Part shown: positions 236 through 15,760 of the stretch, in pieces
How positions within the stretch are numbered: position 1 is the first letter of the stretch
Layout: each line of letters opens with the position of its first letter
Virus record (IMG/VR): IMGVR_UViG_3300003410_000051
Location: 1 to 22,354 of that record
From: a virus
Length of the DNA stretch: 22,354 nt
Reading direction: 5' to 3' (one strand)
Made by a program: the position numbers and the translations under genes
The notes under the pieces: model-generated
The model's database searches: none
What the model was told of the DNA's origin: nothing
What the model saw: only the letters and a program-made list of their open reading frames with translations

Positions 236-997
236 CTATAATAGATTTAAAACTTTTTGATAAAAGTTATTATTATAGTCTCTACATTCTTCTAAAAACC
301 CATTTATAATAGGACTACTAGCCGAAGTTTTCCATTGAGAAATGTGAGGTATCAGAGTAGGTTGATATTTCATATGATCGAACTTTACACTCCACGACAA
401 AACTCTAACATCTTTTTCAAGTAGTTGTCCCCAAAACGCACCGTGATAACTATCAGTGATAATAGTTTTTGCACTACCTAAAAAATCTATTACAGCATCA
501 AAATCCATATTGCTGTTTGACATATGTATATCGCCTTTGGAATATTCATATTTAGACTTAAATGCATGAGTATAATAAACTACATCGTGTTTAACTTCAT
601 ATTGTTTGTCAAATGCTGTATGCATGCAACTTACACACGGAAGATATGAATCATAATGTCCTGGTATCCAATCACGAATACCTACAAGGTTACATTTCTT
701 AATATAATCTGGATAATATTTTATCCCTTTAGCAACAGCTTTTCGACCAAAGTTATGTCCTATCCCCCAAAGTACTGCATTTTTTGGTTTTTTGTCAAGC
801 AGTAATTCTATGTGCTGACTAAATTTTTTATGTATTAATCCACCACCGCCTACTACTAAAGTTTGATCAGTAATAGGAAATCCGTTATAAAGTAACTCGC
901 CTGATTCATATTCAGGAAAATCAAAATAACGCCCAGGATTGCAAAAATAATCTCCAACGTTATTTTTTACTTTTCGATGTACCTCGTAAGTTTTCAT
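236..997 (-). CDS. Polysaccharide pyruvyl-transferase-like protein
   Basis: This 253-residue protein carries several marks of the polysaccharide pyruvyl transferase family (CsaB/WcaK type). They are NVGDYFCNP near residues 13-21, the glycine-rich VVGGGGLI at 48-55, LWGIGHN at 76-82, LVGIRDW at 104-110 and the C-terminal block TDSYHGAFWGQLL at 181-193. Family members move pyruvate from phosphoenolpyruvate onto a sugar hydroxyl of a surface polysaccharide; some relatives are glycosyltransferase-like with other donors. Its length is at the short end for the family. The start overlaps the upstream glycosyltransferase by 38 nt and has TATAAATA only 2 nt before the ATG, so its RNA signal is unusual. 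Within the glycan cassette it would decorate a sugar chain. Whether it is catalytically active cannot be judged from the sequence alone. Confidence 0.8.
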   Translation of the reverse strand: MKTYEVHRKVKNNVGDYFCNPGRYFDFPEYESGELLYNGFPITDQTLVVGGGGLIHKKFSQHIELLLDKKPKNAVLWGIGHNFGRKAVAKGIKYYPDYIKKCNLVGIRDWIPGHYDSYLPCVSCMHTAFDKQYEVKHDVVYYTHAFKSKYEYSKGDIHMSNSNMDFDAVIDFLGSAKTIITDSYHGAFWGQLLEKDVRVLSWSVKFDHMKYQPTLIPHISQWKTSASSPIINGFLEECRDYNNNFYQKVLNLL

Positions 998-1577
998 TAT
1001 ATTTATAAATCTCTTTTTTTAGTGGCCCAGTAAAATGTAATACATGTGCCTTCTCTTTTAACCTAGGAGATGCACAATTCCACTCAAAACTTATCTGTTG
1101 AAAAATGTTTCTTCCTTGCTGAATCCATTCATCTTGTAACCAAATTATATGTCCATTTTCGCCTTCGGTAGTTACAAAATATCCTTTACCCCTAGGTATC
1201 CTATATTTTAATTTTTCTTTTAGTTGTTTAATAAAATCTCTACTATGGTCATTATTTTTAAAATATATAAATCCACTATTTAATCTCCCTGACTTTCCGT
1301 TTACATAGAATATACTTTTCTTTTTATTAAGAAAGTTTATAGGCGGACAACGATCTTTAATATAACAGTCGCCGTCAATTAAGCACACATCTTCATCTGT
1401 TGTATTAAGAAGATTTTCTAATTCATCTATTTTTGCCCGCTTCCAATTGCGAGATTCTTGAGAGCCTTTTATTAAATTATAAGTGTAATCATTCTTTCGG
1501 CACCATATAATTTGACTAGAAATACATGGTTTATATTTTTCTATATAGTCATCTGATGCGGTACACAATAATATCAT
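960..1577 (-). CDS. GT-A fold glycosyltransferase-like protein
   Basis: This 205-residue protein starts with a short strand (MILLCTAS). It has an acidic DxD-type metal/nucleotide-sugar site, CLIDGDCYI, at residues 65-73. The sequence WKRAKIDELENLL precedes it, as in GT8/GT77-like nucleotide-diphospho-sugar transferases. RLNSGFIYFKN at 98-108 fits the usual 'N-x-G' acceptor loop, and HVLHFTGPLKK near the C-terminus resembles the HFxGxxKPW element of GT8 enzymes. It most likely transfers a sugar from a nucleotide-sugar donor; donor and acceptor are unknown. Its ATG overlaps the stop of the upstream DUF579-like gene in a TAATG junction, suggesting translational coupling. Its 3' end overlaps the next gene by 38 nt. 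The reading frame is visibly more A+T-rich than the structural genes, consistent with accessory cargo. Confidence 0.78.
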   Translation of the reverse strand: MILLCTASDDYIEKYKPCISSQIIWCRKNDYTYNLIKGSQESRNWKRAKIDELENLLNTTDEDVCLIDGDCYIKDRCPPINFLNKKKSIFYVNGKSGRLNSGFIYFKNNDHSRDFIKQLKEKLKYRIPRGKGYFVTTEGENGHIIWLQDEWIQQGRNIFQQISFEWNCASPRLKEKAHVLHFTGPLKKEIYKYNENLRGTSKSKK

Positions 1578-2134
1578 TAGTGCGTTACATGTCTTAATTT
1601 TGTTATATCTTTAATCACAGTTGAAAACATTGCTTTACTGTAAATATCTTCAACAGTTCTGTCGCAGTCGTGAATAAAAACATCTGTATTTTTTGATGCA
1701 AGTGATGATGCAGTATAAATGCTTTGCATTCTTCCTGGCTTTTTGTCCGTTGTACCTACAGGCGAATCAACAAAAATACAGTCCCATTTTGTATTTTTTA
1801 CAACGTCCGGTAAGTCCATTTTTAAATTTTTATAAACACCTTTGTTATATTCTTCTAGAAGAGTTACGTACTGAACTCTTCTAGTAGTATATGTTACTTT
1901 AATAACATCATTATCTTCTGGCCTAATCCATTTAGCATTATTTTCTAAAAATAAAGTTTTTCCGTTGCGATTAACATAGCGCCACATAGGCGTGTCATGA
2001 CCAGTTCCAAATACTAGAAAGTTTTTATCTCCTAAAAAATTTGCAATATATCGATATTCTTCAGCTGTCATTTGTCCATGATTAGACTTTTCCATCTTTT
2101 CAGCGAGCATAGTTTCAAATTGTTCGTCTAACAT
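1577..2134 (-). CDS. DUF579 / glucuronoxylan 4-O-methyltransferase-like protein
   Basis: This 185-residue protein resembles the plant IRX15/GXM (DUF579) family along most of its length. The matching segments, in order, are FLVFGTGHDTPMW (residues 39-51, equivalent to the plant FGLGHDSxMW SAM-binding segment), TLFLENNAKWI (60-70), YTTRRVQY (82-89), LPDVVKNTKWDCIFVDSP (108-125), PGRMQSIYTA (133-142) and DVFIHDCDRTVED (151-163). Plant GXM enzymes methylate the 4-O position of glucuronic acid on xylan using S-adenosylmethionine. I infer a SAM-dependent sugar O-methyltransferase acting on a phage or host surface glycan; the substrate here is unknown. It overlaps the upstream methyltransferase by 7 nt and the downstream glycosyltransferase by 1 nt, so it is embedded in the glycan cassette. 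This is recognised from remembered motifs, not from a database search. Confidence 0.82.
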   Translation of the reverse strand: MLDEQFETMLAEKMEKSNHGQMTAEEYRYIANFLGDKNFLVFGTGHDTPMWRYVNRNGKTLFLENNAKWIRPEDNDVIKVTYTTRRVQYVTLLEEYNKGVYKNLKMDLPDVVKNTKWDCIFVDSPVGTTDKKPGRMQSIYTASSLASKNTDVFIHDCDRTVEDIYSKAMFSTVIKDITKLRHVTH

Positions 2135-2721
2135 AGTTGCTGCACCTTTTCAAGAATTTCGTCATTCTTTTCTTTAGTTTTAGTAATAATATAAGAAGGA
2201 AAAGGTTCTTGGGTTACAACAGTTAAGAAGTAATTATTCTCTTCAACAAAATCATTAACACTTTCAACTACACCCCAGTCTGGACGTTTTCGCCACGCTG
2301 GTCTATAATCATGTCCTAGTATCATTCCGTCATCTTTTACTAAAGATTTTACTGCTTGAAGATCTTTCATACATCCGTCATATGTATGATCTCCGTCAAC
2401 GTATACCCAATCAAATAAGTTAGGTTCACAGTACTTAGGTAAGTTATACGTCATATCACGAATAAACTGAACATTATAATTTTTAAACTGTTCTTTTATT
2501 TCTTCGTATCTTTGATCCCAAGTTTCTTGATCAGTATAATATGTTCCTTGAACATTTGTAGCAATAGGTCCCCAAAGATCTACACAAAAATGTAGTTGTG
2601 GTTTTACTATTTCTAAAATAATTCGACTAAAATTTCCTTTACCTACACCGAGTTCTGCACACGTACTGTCTGCTGGCATAAGTTCTAATAGTTGTTCTCT
2701 TTTTATATCAAAGCGTGGCAT
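2128..2721 (-). CDS. Class I SAM-dependent methyltransferase (Methyltransf_24-like)
   Basis: This 197-residue protein has the Rossmann methyltransferase motif I, CAELGVGKGNFS, at residues 21-32. An acidic strand end FCVDLW follows at 45-50. The motif-IV-like FDWVYVDGDHTYDGCMKDL lies at 103-121, and DDGMILGHDY at 130-139. The VDGDHxYxxxxxDL plus GGxxxxHDY arrangement is typical of Methyltransf_24 and FkbM-neighbour enzymes often found in glycan clusters. It probably methylates a sugar or glycolipid, but the substrate is not determined. It begins inside the end of uvsY (14-nt overlap) with GGAAG as a possible ribosome site. The glycan cassette is therefore read through from the recombination operon rather than from its own visible promoter. 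Confidence 0.82.
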   Translation of the reverse strand: MPRFDIKREQLLELMPADSTCAELGVGKGNFSRIILEIVKPQLHFCVDLWGPIATNVQGTYYTDQETWDQRYEEIKEQFKNYNVQFIRDMTYNLPKYCEPNLFDWVYVDGDHTYDGCMKDLQAVKSLVKDDGMILGHDYRPAWRKRPDWGVVESVNDFVEENNYFLTVVTQEPFPSYIITKTKEKNDEILEKVQQLC

Positions 2722-3163
2722 CTTCCATTCCTGCTACTCTGAGCTTTACAACATTAGTTATCTGCCATTGCTTTTGATCAAGTGCCTTTAAGACTCCTAA
2801 CCATTTGTTACGCATTAGCGCAAATTCATTGATAATCTTTTCATAGTCTACGACATCTGCCTCACCGTCAACGTATTTTTCAACGTCGCGGCTTGACAGA
2901 GCTCGTTGGTAATTTTCAAGATATTTTTTGAAAAACGAACTGCGCAATCTACGCAGTTCGATGTTTAGGTATTCTAGGATTGCTTCAATCTCTTGGAGCT
3001 GGTTAAATCGGTGTTCAACAATACCAGGCATACTTGCCGCGGCACGTTCAACATTGCCAGTTAGTTTAACTTCTGTCCGAGCTTCTTGTAGCTCGTGTTC
3101 AAAGAAAGCAACTGCATTAGGAATTTTAGAAATATCACGTGATACTTCGCTGTACCAACCCAT
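2708..3163 (-). CDS. uvsY: UvsY recombination mediator
   Basis: This 151-residue protein is called UvsY, which helps load UvsX onto gp32-covered single-stranded DNA. The support is position, size and some residue patterning. T4 UvsY is 137 residues, and this gene lies two genes behind uvsX. The middle is a charged, probably coiled-coil helix (FNQLQEIEAILEYL), then FKKYLENYQRALSSRDVEKY and a C-terminal helix around RNKWLGVLKALDQKQWQI. This is comparable to the YWGILLDFCSGALDAI region of T4 UvsY. I chose the ATG at 3163 rather than the TTG six bases upstream: GAGGA is well spaced from the ATG and the junction is TAATG with the preceding gene. The family is divergent, so this rests partly on synteny. 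Confidence 0.8.
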   Translation of the reverse strand: MGWYSEVSRDISKIPNAVAFFEHELQEARTEVKLTGNVERAAASMPGIVEHRFNQLQEIEAILEYLNIELRRLRSSFFKKYLENYQRALSSRDVEKYVDGEADVVDYEKIINEFALMRNKWLGVLKALDQKQWQITNVVKLRVAGMEDATL

Positions 3164-3378
3164 TACCAATCCTCATCATTATCTTCGTCTAAATCGAGAT
3201 AGTAGTTAATTGCATTATCTAAATACTGATCATTTCCCAGTGCATCTTTTAGTGTTTCATCTGATACTCCGTAATCTGCAAGTAGGTCAATAAACTTTTC
3301 AGCAGCAATTTCTAGATTTTTCTTGTCGGCATATTCTTTAAAAACTAGCCACAAATCAACGATGATGTTTTCATCCAT
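3163..3378 (-). CDS. Small acidic conserved protein between uvsX and uvsY
   Basis: This 71-residue protein has no domain I can name. Residues 1-60 look helical (VDLWLVFKEYADKKNLEIAAEKFIDLL), and the C-terminus is strongly acidic, ending LDLDEDNDEDW. Genes of this size and character occur between uvsX and uvsY in marine T4-like phages as I remember them; T4 itself has none of this type there. It is joined on both sides by TAATG stop-start overlaps, so UvsX, this protein and UvsY are probably made in fixed proportion. The acidic tail might contact a DNA-binding partner by charge mimicry, but that is only an inference. Confidence 0.8.
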   Translation of the reverse strand: MDENIIVDLWLVFKEYADKKNLEIAAEKFIDLLADYGVSDETLKDALGNDQYLDNAINYYLDLDEDNDEDW

Positions 3379-4448
3379 TATTCATTAATCTCCAAAGGTT
3401 CTTCAACATCGGTATTTACCTCTTGAGTCTCCTCTGGTAGATTTACAAAGTCATCCATAACTTTCTGCATAATATCTCCTGTAAAGTTTTTACGATACTC
3501 GAGAATCTCTTCACCGCTACTCATAACATACTTGAGTCGGTTACCGCTTTTCTCAATAACGCCTTTCTTTTCAAACAAATCCAGCAATCCTGAAAATGGA
3601 TCCATTCCTGTTTCATACGGAATACGTACTTCAACATCCTCAAACGGTTTTGCATAGCGAGTCTTCATCACTTTACACTTGGCACGAATACCATGTACTT
3701 GTGATGTTTTAACACCGTTCTCGTCTTCCTTGAGTTTAAGTTTTTTCATTGCCACAACAATACTGCTAGCATAGATAAACCCTGCACCGCCTGAAATCTT
3801 ATCGTCTGGATCAAACATATCTTGGCTTGCGTATGTATGGTTAGTTACTACCATACCTACATTGTATGCTCCAAACATGTTTACACAGTTAGTTACAAGT
3901 GCTTTAAGTGCTTTAGCCTTGCGACCCATATCACCTTTCATGTCACCTGCTTCAAACTGATTAACTTCAGTAGGTGTCATTAACATGCCTAAACTGTCAA
4001 CTACAAACAGAACTTTAGGACGTTCTTCTTCAGCCATGTCTCTATAGTCTTTCATGAATGTTGATACAGTTTTACCTACATCGTCAATCATTGCCATGTT
4101 AAGTTTTAACATTTTATCTTCGCCGGTGTCTACTTGAAGTGCTTGTAGCCATGCTTCGTCAAGTGCGTTCTCTGTATCAATCAATACAACAAAGATACCT
4201 TGCTCTTGTGCTGCTTTGATAATATTACCAGATACTACATAAGATTTACCTGCACCACTTTCGCCTGCAAATACACTTACTTTGCCTAGTGGAATACCTT
4301 TACTAAAGTCACCACTAATAAGATAGTTGAGTGCGTAGTTACCTGTACTAATCCAGTCAGTAGGATCGTTAAATCCTGCACTCATACCTGTAATGGATTT
4401 TGTTAGTTGTGTCCTAAACTTGGTAGGATCAAATGCTTTTGATGCCAT
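3378..4448 (-). CDS. uvsX: UvsX, RecA-like strand-exchange recombinase
   Basis: This 356-residue protein is the phage RecA homologue that forms filaments on single-stranded DNA. It drives recombination-dependent replication and repair. Walker A is GESGAGKS at residues 62-69; IDTENALD (90-97) holds the candidate catalytic glutamate. Walker B is VLFVVDS at 146-152, and DKISGGAGFIYASSIVV supplies the later conserved core region. The length is close to T4 UvsX (391 residues). The start has AGGAG 6 nt upstream. A GC-rich hairpin with a short T tract separates it from gene 32, so it may receive only part of the gene 32 transcription. Its stop overlaps the next start (TAATG). Confidence 0.97.
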   Translation of the reverse strand: MASKAFDPTKFRTQLTKSITGMSAGFNDPTDWISTGNYALNYLISGDFSKGIPLGKVSVFAGESGAGKSYVVSGNIIKAAQEQGIFVVLIDTENALDEAWLQALQVDTGEDKMLKLNMAMIDDVGKTVSTFMKDYRDMAEEERPKVLFVVDSLGMLMTPTEVNQFEAGDMKGDMGRKAKALKALVTNCVNMFGAYNVGMVVTNHTYASQDMFDPDDKISGGAGFIYASSIVVAMKKLKLKEDENGVKTSQVHGIRAKCKVMKTRYAKPFEDVEVRIPYETGMDPFSGLLDLFEKKGVIEKSGNRLKYVMSSGEEILEYRKNFTGDIMQKVMDDFVNLPEETQEVNTDVEEPLEINE

Positions 4449-12691: not shown

Positions 12692-15600
12692 TTAATTAAA
12701 TTTAAAACTTACAGGATAAAACTCGCTAGACCCTGTATTTGACAGCGTTCCTCCATTACTAGGATCTAACCATACTATTTTTTCAACTATAGATGATCCA
12801 GCATACCAAATCCATAATCCAGTAGGCTCGCTAGGATTGAGTGTAATAGTGCCAGAACTTAGATTAGCATATTCGCCGTCACTATCACCCGAATACTGTC
12901 TACCTATTTTTGTATCTTTAGTCACAGTAAGTTCTACAGTATCGCCTACAAAATAAGTTTTTGTTTTGATAGTATTGTTAAGAAAAATTCTATCAGGTCC
13001 TTCAGTATAAAATGTGCCAGTAGATATTGAATAGGTTTGATTAGGTGTGTCATCATAGAACGGTGCCCAATTATCTCCTGTAAAACTTGGAATAGCATTA
13101 CCTGCACTATCGGTTGCACTAGTAATATTCACAGTCATAAAATTACCTTTAAGGACTGGTCCCGCTTTAAGTGTAAAAACCCAAGTAGGAGTTGTTCGCA
13201 TTGAGTTATCAATAGTTGGTGTATCAGTTACGGTTAATGTGCCTGTGGGATTATCAAAATAATCACTGGCATTACCTTGATCGACAGTGATTTCATAATC
13301 AAAAGTAGTACCCGCAGGAATGTTATATAGTATTGCATATATGCCTAGTTTGGCTCCTGGTGGGTAATAATAGTCGGTCGTTGATCCGCTTACTAAAGAG
13401 TATACTCTTCCACTTGAACTAGTATCCCAGTACAGTTGTACTCTAGACCAATCAGGCGTTCTAGTTGTTCCGTCATCTATTACGTTAATTGTTAATGAAT
13501 CCTGGTTGGCTCCGTCGTCGACAGAAATAGTCAACGTTTGTGTAGATTCTATTGCTTCGTTTTGAAGAACAAAAAAACTTGCTGTGCCTGTATTGTTGTT
13601 TATTATAAAATATTGACGTCCTGGAATTCCGTCACCGCTGCCGTCACTCAATTCGTAGTACCAATTTCCGCTAGTTGATGTTATGTTAAATGGAACTATA
13701 GTTCCATCTGGAACATTTGTTGTAGTAAGTGTAACAACAAACGTGCCGTCTCCTTCTGTTACTGTGCTCGGACCTGATAACGTGTATGTTCTTGTAGGCA
13801 CAGGAATACCACTAGGTAATAATGTAATTTTAGCTGCATTAGGATTTAAAGTTAAATAGTTTTCCATGCTTGTGTATTGTTCGTAGTTGAATGTAGAACT
13901 AGACGTCCCAGGTACTAATAAGATTGATCTTGATTGAGTTGCATTTATGTTTTTAGTAGGGATTGTAATTTTAGTAACAGTATACATAGGCACAGCATCA
14001 CTTGGCACATTACGAACAAGTTCTCCTGTGCTATAATATAGTCTTTGTAAAGTACCGGTTTCCCAGTTTAAAGAATCATATCTGTCATCTGTATCAGGAG
14101 TGTTATCCCATTCCCAAGGATAGAATGACCAATAATCGTCGGTGTTTTCAGAATCATGAAATACATATAACTCTAAATCTTCACCTTCTGTGATAGTTGT
14201 TTTAGGATATTTTACAAAAAAGTTTATAGCTCTATCTGAATCGCCATTGCTCATTGTAAGTTTTTTTGTAGATATAAAAGGTGCTTTTAGAAGTTTATTC
14301 GGACCGCCGAATATTGTTGATGACGATGTATAATCATCTGTCTGTCCAGTACCTTTCATATGATTGTCCCAAGCAAGTTGTACAATATAATCTTTAAACT
14401 GGTAATGATTCCATTTACGCCTTGCTTCTGCAAGTTGGGCAATTACTCCAGTAACTTGCGGACATGCCATCGACGTGCCAGAAATTGCAATAGCTTTATA
14501 GTTAGAATCTAAGACATAGTTGCCTCTATAATCATTATTGTATTGATCCCATATTGTACAACCTTCAGGTATAGCTCCCATAATCCAACTTCCAGGTGCA
14601 TATAAATCTACTCCTGGACCTGCATTACTAAAACTCGATCTTATATTGTTTGTTGGAGGGTTCCAGCCACTAGTACTTCCGTTACCAAAATCCATGGCTC
14701 CTACAGTTATTACGTCTCCGTGACCTGGAGTTGTTCCTCTGTGATAATATCTAGTACCATATACACTTGAAGTCCAGTAGTTGTCGTAGTCATCGCCTCC
14801 TGGAATATCTACCTTGTGTTTGTCATTACCTGCTGCGGCAACAACTATTATTCCTGCATCAATACAGTCTTGTATATCAGCATCAACAGAAGCAAAGTGT
14901 ACAGGAAAAATATAATCTCCGTCAACATTTTGTTGTGATTCTACCATGCCGTATTGCGATTGCATGGTAGTTGCTGTCCAAGGAGTTCCTCGATAATTGC
15001 CGCCTGTGATATTTGTATACGGAGCAAAATACCCCCAGCTGTTACTCATTATTGTAGGATTGTCGTTGCTTTTATTCAAATGCCATAATCTCATTAAATT
15101 AATAGCAAGACTTGTTCCAAATGCATCTGTATCAAAAATTTTAATGGCATAGATGTTAGCAGAAGGAGCCCATCCAAATCTTGCTCCTGCGGCAGTACTT
15201 GAACAATGTGTGCCATGACCGTACTGGTCTGTATAGTGCTGAGGTCCTTGTGTATATGAGCCAGATAAACCCGCTTCTGCAGGCCAATCAACTTGTTGAA
15301 GTCTACTTACACCTGTAATGGGATCTTTCCATTCAGGATGATCTGCAAGGATACCGCTATCACAGATTACAATGTCTACATTTTTTCCAGAAGCAGTTAT
15401 ACCATCAACCCATCCGTCTGGACGCAATGTAAAACTTCGAGTACCGTGTGTACTCATCCATTTACCCCAGTCAGTTTTGTCTGCGTCGTAAAATCCCTGA
15501 ATGGATGTTCTATTTCCTGTTCGTCCAATATTATGAAGTAGTTCGCCGCCGTTTTCTATTTTAGAACCTACTCGTACATCTATAACACGACTATCTGTTT

Positions 15601-15760
15601 TTAAATCTTCAACTTGTTCTGCAGTCATTAATAGATCAAAATTACGCAAACTTTCTGGCTTTTCATTATGCACAGTAAAGCCAGCATCGTGCATTTCTTG
15701 CATGAAGTTTGCTTTGTCTATGCCTTTATGAAGAGTAACTACACAGCGTTGTTCAGACAT
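12692..15760 (-). CDS. Subtilisin-family (S8) serine protease with C-terminal beta-domain extension
   Basis: This 1022-residue protein contains a full subtilase catalytic domain: Asp134 in VICDSGI, His182 in YGHGTHCSSTAAG, oxyanion Asn312 in AAAGNDKH and Ser430 in SGTSMACPQVTG. Residues 1-70 have the look of an I9-type inhibitory propeptide (CVVTLHKGIDKANFMQEMHD). No signal peptide is seen. Beyond about residue 500 come Thr/Ser/Gly-rich beta domains. One at about 665-770 resembles a Calx-beta repeat (STVTEGDGTFVVTL, ending LTINVIDDG), and a further domain runs to the C-terminus. The gene starts 9 nt after the tail-fibre-like gene with AAGGAAC as its ribosome site, so the two are probably co-expressed late. 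I infer a virion- or tail-associated protease, perhaps acting on host surface proteins or maturing a tail part. A lysis role is the alternative. Confidence 0.95.
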   Translation of the reverse strand: MSEQRCVVTLHKGIDKANFMQEMHDAGFTVHNEKPESLRNFDLLMTAEQVEDLKTDSRVIDVRVGSKIENGGELLHNIGRTGNRTSIQGFYDADKTDWGKWMSTHGTRSFTLRPDGWVDGITASGKNVDIVICDSGILADHPEWKDPITGVSRLQQVDWPAEAGLSGSYTQGPQHYTDQYGHGTHCSSTAAGARFGWAPSANIYAIKIFDTDAFGTSLAINLMRLWHLNKSNDNPTIMSNSWGYFAPYTNITGGNYRGTPWTATTMQSQYGMVESQQNVDGDYIFPVHFASVDADIQDCIDAGIIVVAAAGNDKHKVDIPGGDDYDNYWTSSVYGTRYYHRGTTPGHGDVITVGAMDFGNGSTSGWNPPTNNIRSSFSNAGPGVDLYAPGSWIMGAIPEGCTIWDQYNNDYRGNYVLDSNYKAIAISGTSMACPQVTGVIAQLAEARRKWNHYQFKDYIVQLAWDNHMKGTGQTDDYTSSSTIFGGPNKLLKAPFISTKKLTMSNGDSDRAINFFVKYPKTTITEGEDLELYVFHDSENTDDYWSFYPWEWDNTPDTDDRYDSLNWETGTLQRLYYSTGELVRNVPSDAVPMYTVTKITIPTKNINATQSRSILLVPGTSSSTFNYEQYTSMENYLTLNPNAAKITLLPSGIPVPTRTYTLSGPSTVTEGDGTFVVTLTTTNVPDGTIVPFNITSTSGNWYYELSDGSGDGIPGRQYFIINNNTGTASFFVLQNEAIESTQTLTISVDDGANQDSLTINVIDDGTTRTPDWSRVQLYWDTSSSGRVYSLVSGSTTDYYYPPGAKLGIYAILYNIPAGTTFDYEITVDQGNASDYFDNPTGTLTVTDTPTIDNSMRTTPTWVFTLKAGPVLKGNFMTVNITSATDSAGNAIPSFTGDNWAPFYDDTPNQTYSISTGTFYTEGPDRIFLNNTIKTKTYFVGDTVELTVTKDTKIGRQYSGDSDGEYANLSSGTITLNPSEPTGLWIWYAGSSIVEKIVWLDPSNGGTLSNTGSSEFYPVSFKFN

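Follow-up and report, generated by a model that had tools for sequence, protein, structure and literature searches.

Background

DUF579 (Pfam PF21729) is treated in the literature found as a plant cell-wall family (PMC3921138, PMC5902652, PMC6508755). Plant members transfer a methyl group from S-adenosylmethionine (SAM) to O-4 of glucuronic acid (GlcA) on xylan (PMC3921138, PMC6508755). The Populus enzymes methylate GlcA on an oligosaccharide and use neither free GlcA nor its uridine diphosphate form, UDP-GlcA (PMC3921138), and AGM1/2 are required for GlcA 4-O-methylation on arabinogalactan; plant GXM, IRX15 and AGM1 are Golgi proteins (PMC6508755). In the chlorovirus PBCV-1, A064R combines two rhamnosyltransferase domains with a methyltransferase that adds a 2-O-methyl group, and A061L then adds a 3-O-methyl group to the same rhamnose (PMC9614988). 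Mycobacterial MeT1 methylates oligomannosides, and its gene is clustered with those of a mannosyltransferase and another, putative methyltransferase (PMC9883506). The gene considered here lies in a stretch of viral DNA of 22,354 nucleotides (IMG/VR record IMGVR_UViG_3300003410_000051, positions 1 to 22,354; hereafter the window). It belongs to a T4-like (large tailed) phage and encodes a member of the DUF579/GXM family, which was found to be recurrently paired with a glycosyltransferase (GT)-like gene. Literature joining DUF579 with phages or viruses contained no phage member among the matches listed (titles and the beginnings of abstracts).

Family assignment and conserved residues

The GXM open reading frame (ORF) has exact bounds of 1577-2134 on the minus strand, for which the original prediction had given no strand. 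The ORF and its downstream partner are as follows:

1577..2134, minus strand, class-I SAM-dependent methyltransferase of PF21729 (IRX15/GXM, DUF579), 185 residues, ATG start
960..1577, minus strand, GT-like partner, predicted GT-A fold; a homologue is fused to the methyltransferase domain in contig L119

Comparison of the GXM ORF with Pfam gave a match to PF21729 (IRX15/IRX15L/GXM) at E = 3.8e-32 and 111.8 bits, 84 bits over the cut-off of 27.8. The only other match up to E = 10 was sub-threshold (UvrD_C_2, E = 0.12), and so a better profile match to an unrelated family, which was looked for as a refuting test, did not appear. Judged from sequence, assignment of the 185-residue ORF to PF21729/DUF579 is solid, as had been predicted. 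The model of the plant DUF579 domain, TIGR01627, was matched at E = 7.1e-31 with 107.7 bits, short of its curated cut-off of 149.85, and no PHROG matched at E <= 0.01 (best 0.03).

Further members were collected with two DNA patterns, the first made of codons for WDx[IV]xxDxPxG...PG[RS]M and the second for FGxGxDxxxW...FxE. The working alignment comprised the window protein and 76 of the 94 sequences with references (77 members), all of which matched PF21729 at E <= 0.01. All five segments quoted in the original prediction were present in the translation of 1577-2134, and the segments FGxGxD..W, FLE, WDxIxxDxP, PGRM-like and HDxxRxxE, all found in the window protein, were mostly invariant among the 77 members. 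The first search pattern itself required W117, D118, D123, P125, G127 and PGRM; the invariant positions that it did not require are L40, G45, D47, W51, F62, E64, Y82, D156, R159 and E162. The second pattern returned 43 members, of which 28 also fit the first; among the other 15, PGRM occurred only in L129. Those of the second-pattern-only members whose sequence was displayed kept the WDxxxxDxP core and had PGRA, IGRM, SGRM, PGRE or PCRM in place of PGRM, which is therefore not strictly required. In the window protein, motif I reads F42-G-T-G45-H-D47..W51, and the further residues of note are the acid E64, D123 and H155-D156.

The phage protein shares with plant DUF579 proteins (GXM1-3, AGM1/2) the Pfam family, the conserved segments in their order and a predicted SAM-methyltransferase fold. 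It differs in falling under the TIGR01627 cut-off, in being encoded by a T4-like phage and in having no hydrophobic stretch near its start, as judged by reading the sequence. Plant GXM, IRX15 and AGM1 have an N-terminal transmembrane anchor.

Predicted structure

The predicted model of the GXM protein had a pLDDT of 95.1 and a pTM of 0.91, with the strand order of class-I methyltransferases; it supports, with high confidence, a class-I SAM-methyltransferase fold. A strand at 38-42 is followed by G43-T-G45, a second at 59-64 ends in E64, D123 stands just after strand 4 and H155-D156 just after strand 5. The positions of G43-G45, E64, D123 and D156 are those at which class-I methyltransferases hold SAM and, in enzymes of the COMT/MycF type, the metal; in COMT/MycF-like enzymes it is the acidic residues ending strands 4 and 5 that bind the divalent metal. 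The predicted model thus agrees with the fold expected, its motif residues being in place, and loss of the SAM pocket, also looked for as a refuting test, was not seen in it. hhalign aligned the profiles of GXM and of the adjacent Methyltransf_24 gene over 125 columns (prob 95.9), pairing D123 and D156 with D109 and D138 of the latter. On a metal requirement of plant GXM, the words cobalt, metal, divalent and Co2+ do not occur in the Populus paper (PMC3921138), and no paper on GXMT1 together with cobalt was among the matches listed.

A structure search (VIA) placed 646 of 1000 chains at Z >= 8, and the best 50 were mostly SAM methyltransferases. The nearest solved structures that act on sugars were all among the first 11 rows: MeT1 (Z 13.7, root-mean-square deviation (rmsd) 3.1 over 150 residues), MycF (12.2, 3.4 over 156), SpnH (12.1, 3.5 over 157) and MycE (12.0, 2.9 over 145). 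COMT followed at 11.5. Structural alignments with these four sugar enzymes showed 10-14% identity, and their acceptors are not comparable. Foldseek also ranked MycE best (E = 2.7e-4), with a putative caffeoyl-CoA O-methyltransferase among its further matches. At the level of a predicted model, the nearest structures suggest sugar specificity. Sequence searches of the PDB found no solved structure of the PF21729 family: the single GXM sequence gave weak matches alone (best E = 0.022; ATPases, interleukin-18), and the family profile matched propeller lectins best (E = 1e-5), followed by weak unrelated proteins. The lectin matches ran through a repeated short FGxGxDxxxW segment, and were put down to chance likeness.

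Pairing with a glycosyltransferase-like gene

The GXM stop codon and the start of the downstream gene (960-1577) are merged as TAATG, while the GXM start overlaps the end of the upstream Methyltransf_24 gene by 7 nucleotides; the gene therefore lies in an operon-like run. Pfam gave only weak, sub-cut-off matches for 960-1577, with RRM_3 (0.0054) first and Nucleotid_trans (E = 0.017) next. A homologue of its product forms the C-terminal part of a frame of 419 residues in L119 (an IMG/VR contig in which tail-like genes were noted by reading), the N-terminal part of this frame being PF21729; the GT-like part showed 33% identity to the window product over 198 residues (97.8 bits, E = 2e-28). The GT-like profile identified 10 loci, with GXM adjacent in eight, fused in one (L119) and absent in one (L140). 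Two of the eight represent the window's own virus. The other six come from related contigs, some apparently near-copies of one another, that carry all three of Methyltransf_24, GXM and the GT-like gene; in L006/L138, three genes lie between Methyltransf_24 and GXM. This recurrent pairing of GXM with a GT-like gene is a new and specific result. A possible homology between the window GT and the middle of an Okeania fusion protein (L107) was not significant (18.5 bits, E = 0.11).

The best structural match of the GT-like model was domain 1 of PBCV-1 A064R (Z 15.9, rmsd 3.2 over 184 residues), followed by a xyloglucan xylosyltransferase (Z 14.2). The window resembles PBCV-1 A064R/A061L in that a virus encodes both a GT-A-like glycosyltransferase and a class-I methyltransferase; however, the two functions reside in one protein in A064R and in separate genes in the window, and an algal virus is compared with a T4-like phage. 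Homology with A064R is not claimed, because sequence identity between its domain 1 and the window GT-like protein is about 10%; the likeness is one of fold and plan. Matches of the methyltransferase model in BFVD included M1IF74 (E = 6.8e-4), a viral protein of 638 residues, which is A064R's length, and which may be A064R.

Given that it lies beside, and in one instance is fused to, a likely sugar-adding enzyme, GXM probably methylates a sugar on a glycan built or altered by the phage. Family chemistry, fold and GT pairing, taken together, make the sugar placed by the neighbouring GT the one most likely to be methylated. The function proposed, with reasonably good confidence, is that of a DUF579/GXM O-methyltransferase acting on a terminal or near-terminal sugar of a cassette-built glycan, this sugar being added by the GT-like partner. 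Methyl transfer, metal dependence, a sugar acceptor and a capping role may be inferred along the following lines. The genes between uvsY and uvsW would build the glycan and the product of 960-1577 would add a sugar; GXM, a class-I and probably divalent metal-dependent and SAM-dependent enzyme, would then methylate one hydroxyl of the sugar at or near the glycan end, so capping or decorating it. The adjacent Methyltransf_24 gene could provide a second methyltransferase, as a separate enzyme adds the second methyl group in the chlorovirus. The likely use would be a variable methylated end group on a surface glycan that the phage makes or alters, either on the virion or on the host envelope during infection. 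Glycan genes are already a familiar feature of large phages, and a likely sugar methyltransferase now joins them; the finding alone opens no new mechanism.

The cassette between uvsY and uvsW

The remaining features around the pair are listed below, with the recombination genes that place it in phage DNA:

2..217, minus strand, HldE/RfaE-domain-II-like nucleotidyltransferase, of which the window edge leaves only the start
236..997, minus strand, polysaccharide pyruvyl-transferase-like gene (PF04230, E = 7.4e-4, under the curated cut-off)
2128..2721, minus strand, second methyltransferase, Methyltransf_24 (PF13578, E = 2.2e-13)
2708..3169, minus strand, uvsY, recombination gene flanking the cassette (phrog_231, E = 4.8e-17)
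3378-4448, uvsX (PF00154; phrog_97 for the L001 protein)

The window seems to form part of a larger, 115-kb record, IMGVR_UViG_3300025617_000009, judging from 12 exact 40-mers sampled along it, all of which were found there in order; by these, it corresponds to positions 26109-48462. The larger contig also encodes a capsid protein of the T4 family, Gp23; its six pieces were free of tRNA genes according to ARAGORN. The phage's terminase matched INPHARED entries at less than 60% throughout, the best being Pseudomonas phages such as PA5oct (54%). Neither result pointed to a host. The phage location given in the original prediction was supported.

Approximately 12 ORFs separate uvsY from a uvsW-like helicase gene (L111:18106-19566), in which the helicase domains matched strongly and UvsW_N weakly. 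Those recognised are Methyltransf_24, GXM, the GT-like gene, the pyruvyl-transferase-like gene, an HldE-like gene with a cupin/mannose-6-phosphate-isomerase end, GT8 and a weak GT2-like gene, and so the glycan-gene neighbourhood that had been predicted (GT8, GT2-like, pyruvyl-transferase-like, HldE/cupin) also held. The pyruvyl-transferase-like gene adjoins the GT-like gene in related contigs. In L001/L112 (L112:5558-6325) the HldE-like protein has 256 residues and ends in a mannose-6-phosphate-isomerase/cupin domain, and this combination recurs in related phage cassettes. The order uvsY, Methyltransf_24, GXM is found in the window's virus as well as in L003, L004, L005, L007 and L014. The slot after uvsY was otherwise occupied in L140, from a related phage, by an FkbM methyltransferase (PF05050, E = 1.4e-8), a sulfotransferase (PF17784, E = 4.1e-10) and a gene without a Pfam match (L140:983-2998); the same GT-like, pyruvyl-transferase-like and HldE-like genes follow the slot, without GXM. 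Such genes can also stand beside GXM: in L006 the three genes between Methyltransf_24 and GXM (L006:4080-6005) are those of a sulfotransferase (E = 7.1e-12) and of an FkbM methyltransferase (E = 5.4e-16), together with one that had no match.

These arrangements raise a broader, rather doubtful possibility, that T4-like phages possess an exchangeable 'cap' system, with a lasting core and a swappable end-group slot through which the outer sugar of a glycan made by the phage is altered. The core would consist of the GT-like, pyruvyl-transferase-like and HldE-cupin genes between uvsY and uvsW, and the slot would hold the GXM methyltransferase, the second methyltransferase, the FkbM methyltransferase or the sulfotransferase. 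If true, this would be an independently reached phage counterpart of the methylation of chlorovirus capsid glycan by A064R/A061L, using the enzyme family of plant xylan.

Fusions and neighbours across the family

Fusions involving GXM also occurred among bacteria. Methyltransf_24 and GXM were found in one chain in four cyanobacterial proteins (Arthrospira L049, Trichodesmium L104, Okeania L080 and L107), and GT2 and GXM were fused in L074 and L102; in the long frame of L067, a GT1-like part (sub-cut-off) precedes GXM. Searching 111 loci at E <= 1e-3 for counterparts of the window's neighbour genes beside bacterial GXM identified Methyltransf_24 in Okeania L107 only. Long viral frames were also observed. 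One of 1289 residues (L122:7519-11385) has two tandem PF21729 domains together with Stealth- and Caps_synth-like parts (sub-cut-off), and in L117:4338-6005, L120:10515-12173, L131:7196-8869 and L132 approximately 360 residues stand ahead of PF21729; in L117 and L131 this part had no Pfam match at E <= 0.01.

The neighbour tallies each list 25 families. The viral tally covered 134 neighbours, up to four genes on each side, from 20 contigs, some of them near-copies (E <= 0.01, with overlapping counts). For bacteria, 164 neighbours were extracted and 145 of them tallied, drawn from 50 of the 58 loci. Neighbours of viral members were rich in glycan families: Methyltransf_24 (9), GT8 (9), GT2 (6), CTP_transf_3 (6), Nucleotid_trans (6), GT29 (4) and GT25 (3). 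CTP_transf_3 (6), GT29 sialyltransferase (4) and HpcH/HpaI aldolase (3) near viral members are a hint of acidic or nonulosonic-type sugars in some of the viruses. In eight Flavobacteriaceae/Bacteroidota loci (L057, L058, L060, L062, L071, L077, L085, L106) the PF21729 gene is preceded by two ORFs (819 and 1200-1212 nucleotides) that recur as a pair, and the Mur-ligase matches among bacterial neighbours may be one ORF of this pair, perhaps FolC-like.

Alternative explanations

Several observations weigh against a methyltransferase acting on the sugar placed by its GT partner. The GT-like model had a moderate pLDDT of 73 and was made from 6 sequences. The pairing is limited to one group of related phages and one other contig; other viral GXM members have other neighbours, and among the 111 loci GXM directly follows uvsY without this Methyltransf_24 or GT in L036, L125 and L127. 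Of ten proteins scanned from the cassette region, four were without a Pfam match (E <= 0.05). Bacterial neighbours were mixed, with Mur ligase (8) and GT1/GT4-type (7 each, overlapping) the commonest; therefore, the family is not always beside glycan genes and a general glycan claim is weaker for bacteria. The shared fold alone shows no function, and the structural ranking was not confined to sugar enzymes: TrmR (Z 12.7) and the tRNA m1A58 enzymes (12.2) scored as high as three of the four, and tRNA m1A58 and rRNA enzymes were ranked between them. Some bacterial members, moreover, adjoin non-glycan genes. An enzyme that methylates RNA, protein or a small molecule, for which the glycan neighbourhood is incidental, is nonetheless very unlikely. 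It does not accord with fusions to glycosyltransferase domains in unrelated genomes (L119; L074, L102), and in the papers cited here the family members with shown activity act on GlcA of polysaccharides (PMC3921138, PMC6508755). Of even lower probability is a non-catalytic protein with a supporting role, as IRX15 might be; IRX15 and IRX15L, plant members of the family, have no known enzymatic activity (PMC6508755), which also counts against the function proposed, but the phage protein keeps the G45/D47 motif, E64, D123 and D156, as does the aligned family throughout.

The other two alternatives concern which sugar, and whose glycan, is methylated. That the cassette alters the host envelope (lipopolysaccharide (LPS) or capsule) during infection, for example to block superinfection, has a probability a little short of even; it is compatible with the proposed function and would specify its target. 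There is a likeness to LPS and capsule genes in the HldE-like nucleotidyltransferase/cupin, pyruvyl-transferase-like and GT8/GT25-type genes, and the position of GXM adjoining uvsX/uvsY was counted in favour also. Conversely, Pfam recognised none of the cassette's proteins as a membrane flippase, polymerase or ligase, four of them being matchless, and in chloroviruses the glycan genes of a virus can serve the virion (PMC9614988). It is unlikely, to about the degree of one chance among a few, that the protein is a true O-methyltransferase of glucuronic or another uronic acid, like plant GXM, with its acceptor on a phage- or host-made polysaccharide; a uronic acid was among the acceptors that the original prediction had named. 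Plant clade I 4-O-methylates GlcA on xylan and clade III is required for this on arabinogalactan (PMC6508755), and the phage protein keeps the near-invariant residues of the family. Two genes upstream of a 44%-identical member in viral contig L008 there is an NAD-dependent sugar epimerase (L008:4210-5160; PF01370, E = 8.5e-45), whose best PDB relatives were 5u4q (labelled dTDP-glucose 4,6-dehydratase), 6zl6 and MoeE5. The last two are UDP-glucuronate 4-epimerases, and the L008 enzyme may act on UDP-GlcA, which would point to a uronic acid; however, it comes from another virus, and what it acts on can only be guessed. The window cassette contains no UDP-glucose dehydrogenase, glucuronosyltransferase or UDP-GlcA-synthesis gene recognised by Pfam, and on the plant model TIGR01627 five viral members scored under six bacterial ones (80-114 against 116-161 bits). 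Chlorophyte algae without xylan also have orthologues (PMC5902652), and so the acceptor may change within the family.

Distribution and origin

The first pattern returned 32 viral stretches, all of them family members by the profile built here, and 63 stretches from bacterial genomes, of which 62 contained members and L066 was a chance match. Of the 44 viral stretches returned by the second, 28 had been found with the first and 16 had not (15 of these are members, L126 is not), which brings the viral total to 47 IMG/VR contigs, many of them near-copies. As the profile was built from pattern hits it is partly circular, and Pfam served as the independent check: the PF21729 cut-off was passed in 21 of 21 viral records searched by family, and PF21729 matched all seven proteins taken from new loci. 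Gp23 was detected in 6 of these 21 records, many of which are fragments. No tblastn match at E <= 0.01 was found in 50,697 INPHARED (cultured-phage) records with the window protein, L042 (from the second viral clade) and L034 (from another branch of the window's clade) as queries, and a family search of 14 control genomes found no member. Bacterial members came from Okeania, Flavobacteriaceae, Gemmatimonadota, Aegiribacteria, Chlamydiae and others.

Three claims of the original prediction must be revised accordingly. It had described the protein as plant-type, and the family as known mainly from plants; yet bacterial members are numerous, and those tested are closer to the plant model than the viral ones. 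On TIGR01627, viral members scored 107.7 (window), 106.5, 79.6, 113.7 and 99.2 bits, while bacterial members scored 116.3, 152.4, 143, 146.7, 160.6 and 160, three of the six exceeding the cut-off. All six thus outscored all five, so that 'plant-type' is misleading and gene transfer from plant to phage is not favoured. The family is instead a bacterial and viral one. Nor does the protein represent a minimal catalytic core, since its size is ordinary; several bacterial members have open frames of 181-193 residues. Bacterial PF21729 proteins share the family with the window protein, some are of similar length and some are fused to GT2 or Methyltransf_24, whereas the window protein falls in a clade of viruses only.

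Two trees were estimated for bacterial and viral members. From 95 domain sequences, the first omitted seven (five fragments and two copies of the window protein), and the second omitted 21 (fragments and near-copies) and included nine additional domains from 8 of the 15 new loci. The virus-only clade containing the window protein had 15 rows in the first tree and 13 in the second, with support of 100/99 in both. A second virus-only clade (13 and 10 rows, respectively; 100/100) includes further Gp23-bearing contigs (G009-G012). A single origin of these two clades was not accepted, as they were joined at just 80/84. L032 was grouped with Bacteroidota with good support, while L117/L131, L119 and L122 were placed elsewhere, weakly, with L119 on a long branch. 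Since the starred branches force at least two changes of label, there was probably more than one exchange between bacteria and viruses; on these sequences, the family is likely to have entered viruses on several occasions (at least two), with bacteria or an older shared pool as its source.

As the family occurs in phages and across many bacterial phyla, in part fused to glycosyltransferases, small and probably soluble homologues are available for tests of SAM, metal and acceptor. These may also throw light on what uncharacterised members, IRX15 and the algal proteins among them, use as substrates. Elsewhere in the window, positions 12692-15760 on the minus strand encode a subtilase of 1022 residues (Peptidase_S8, E = 5.6e-34).

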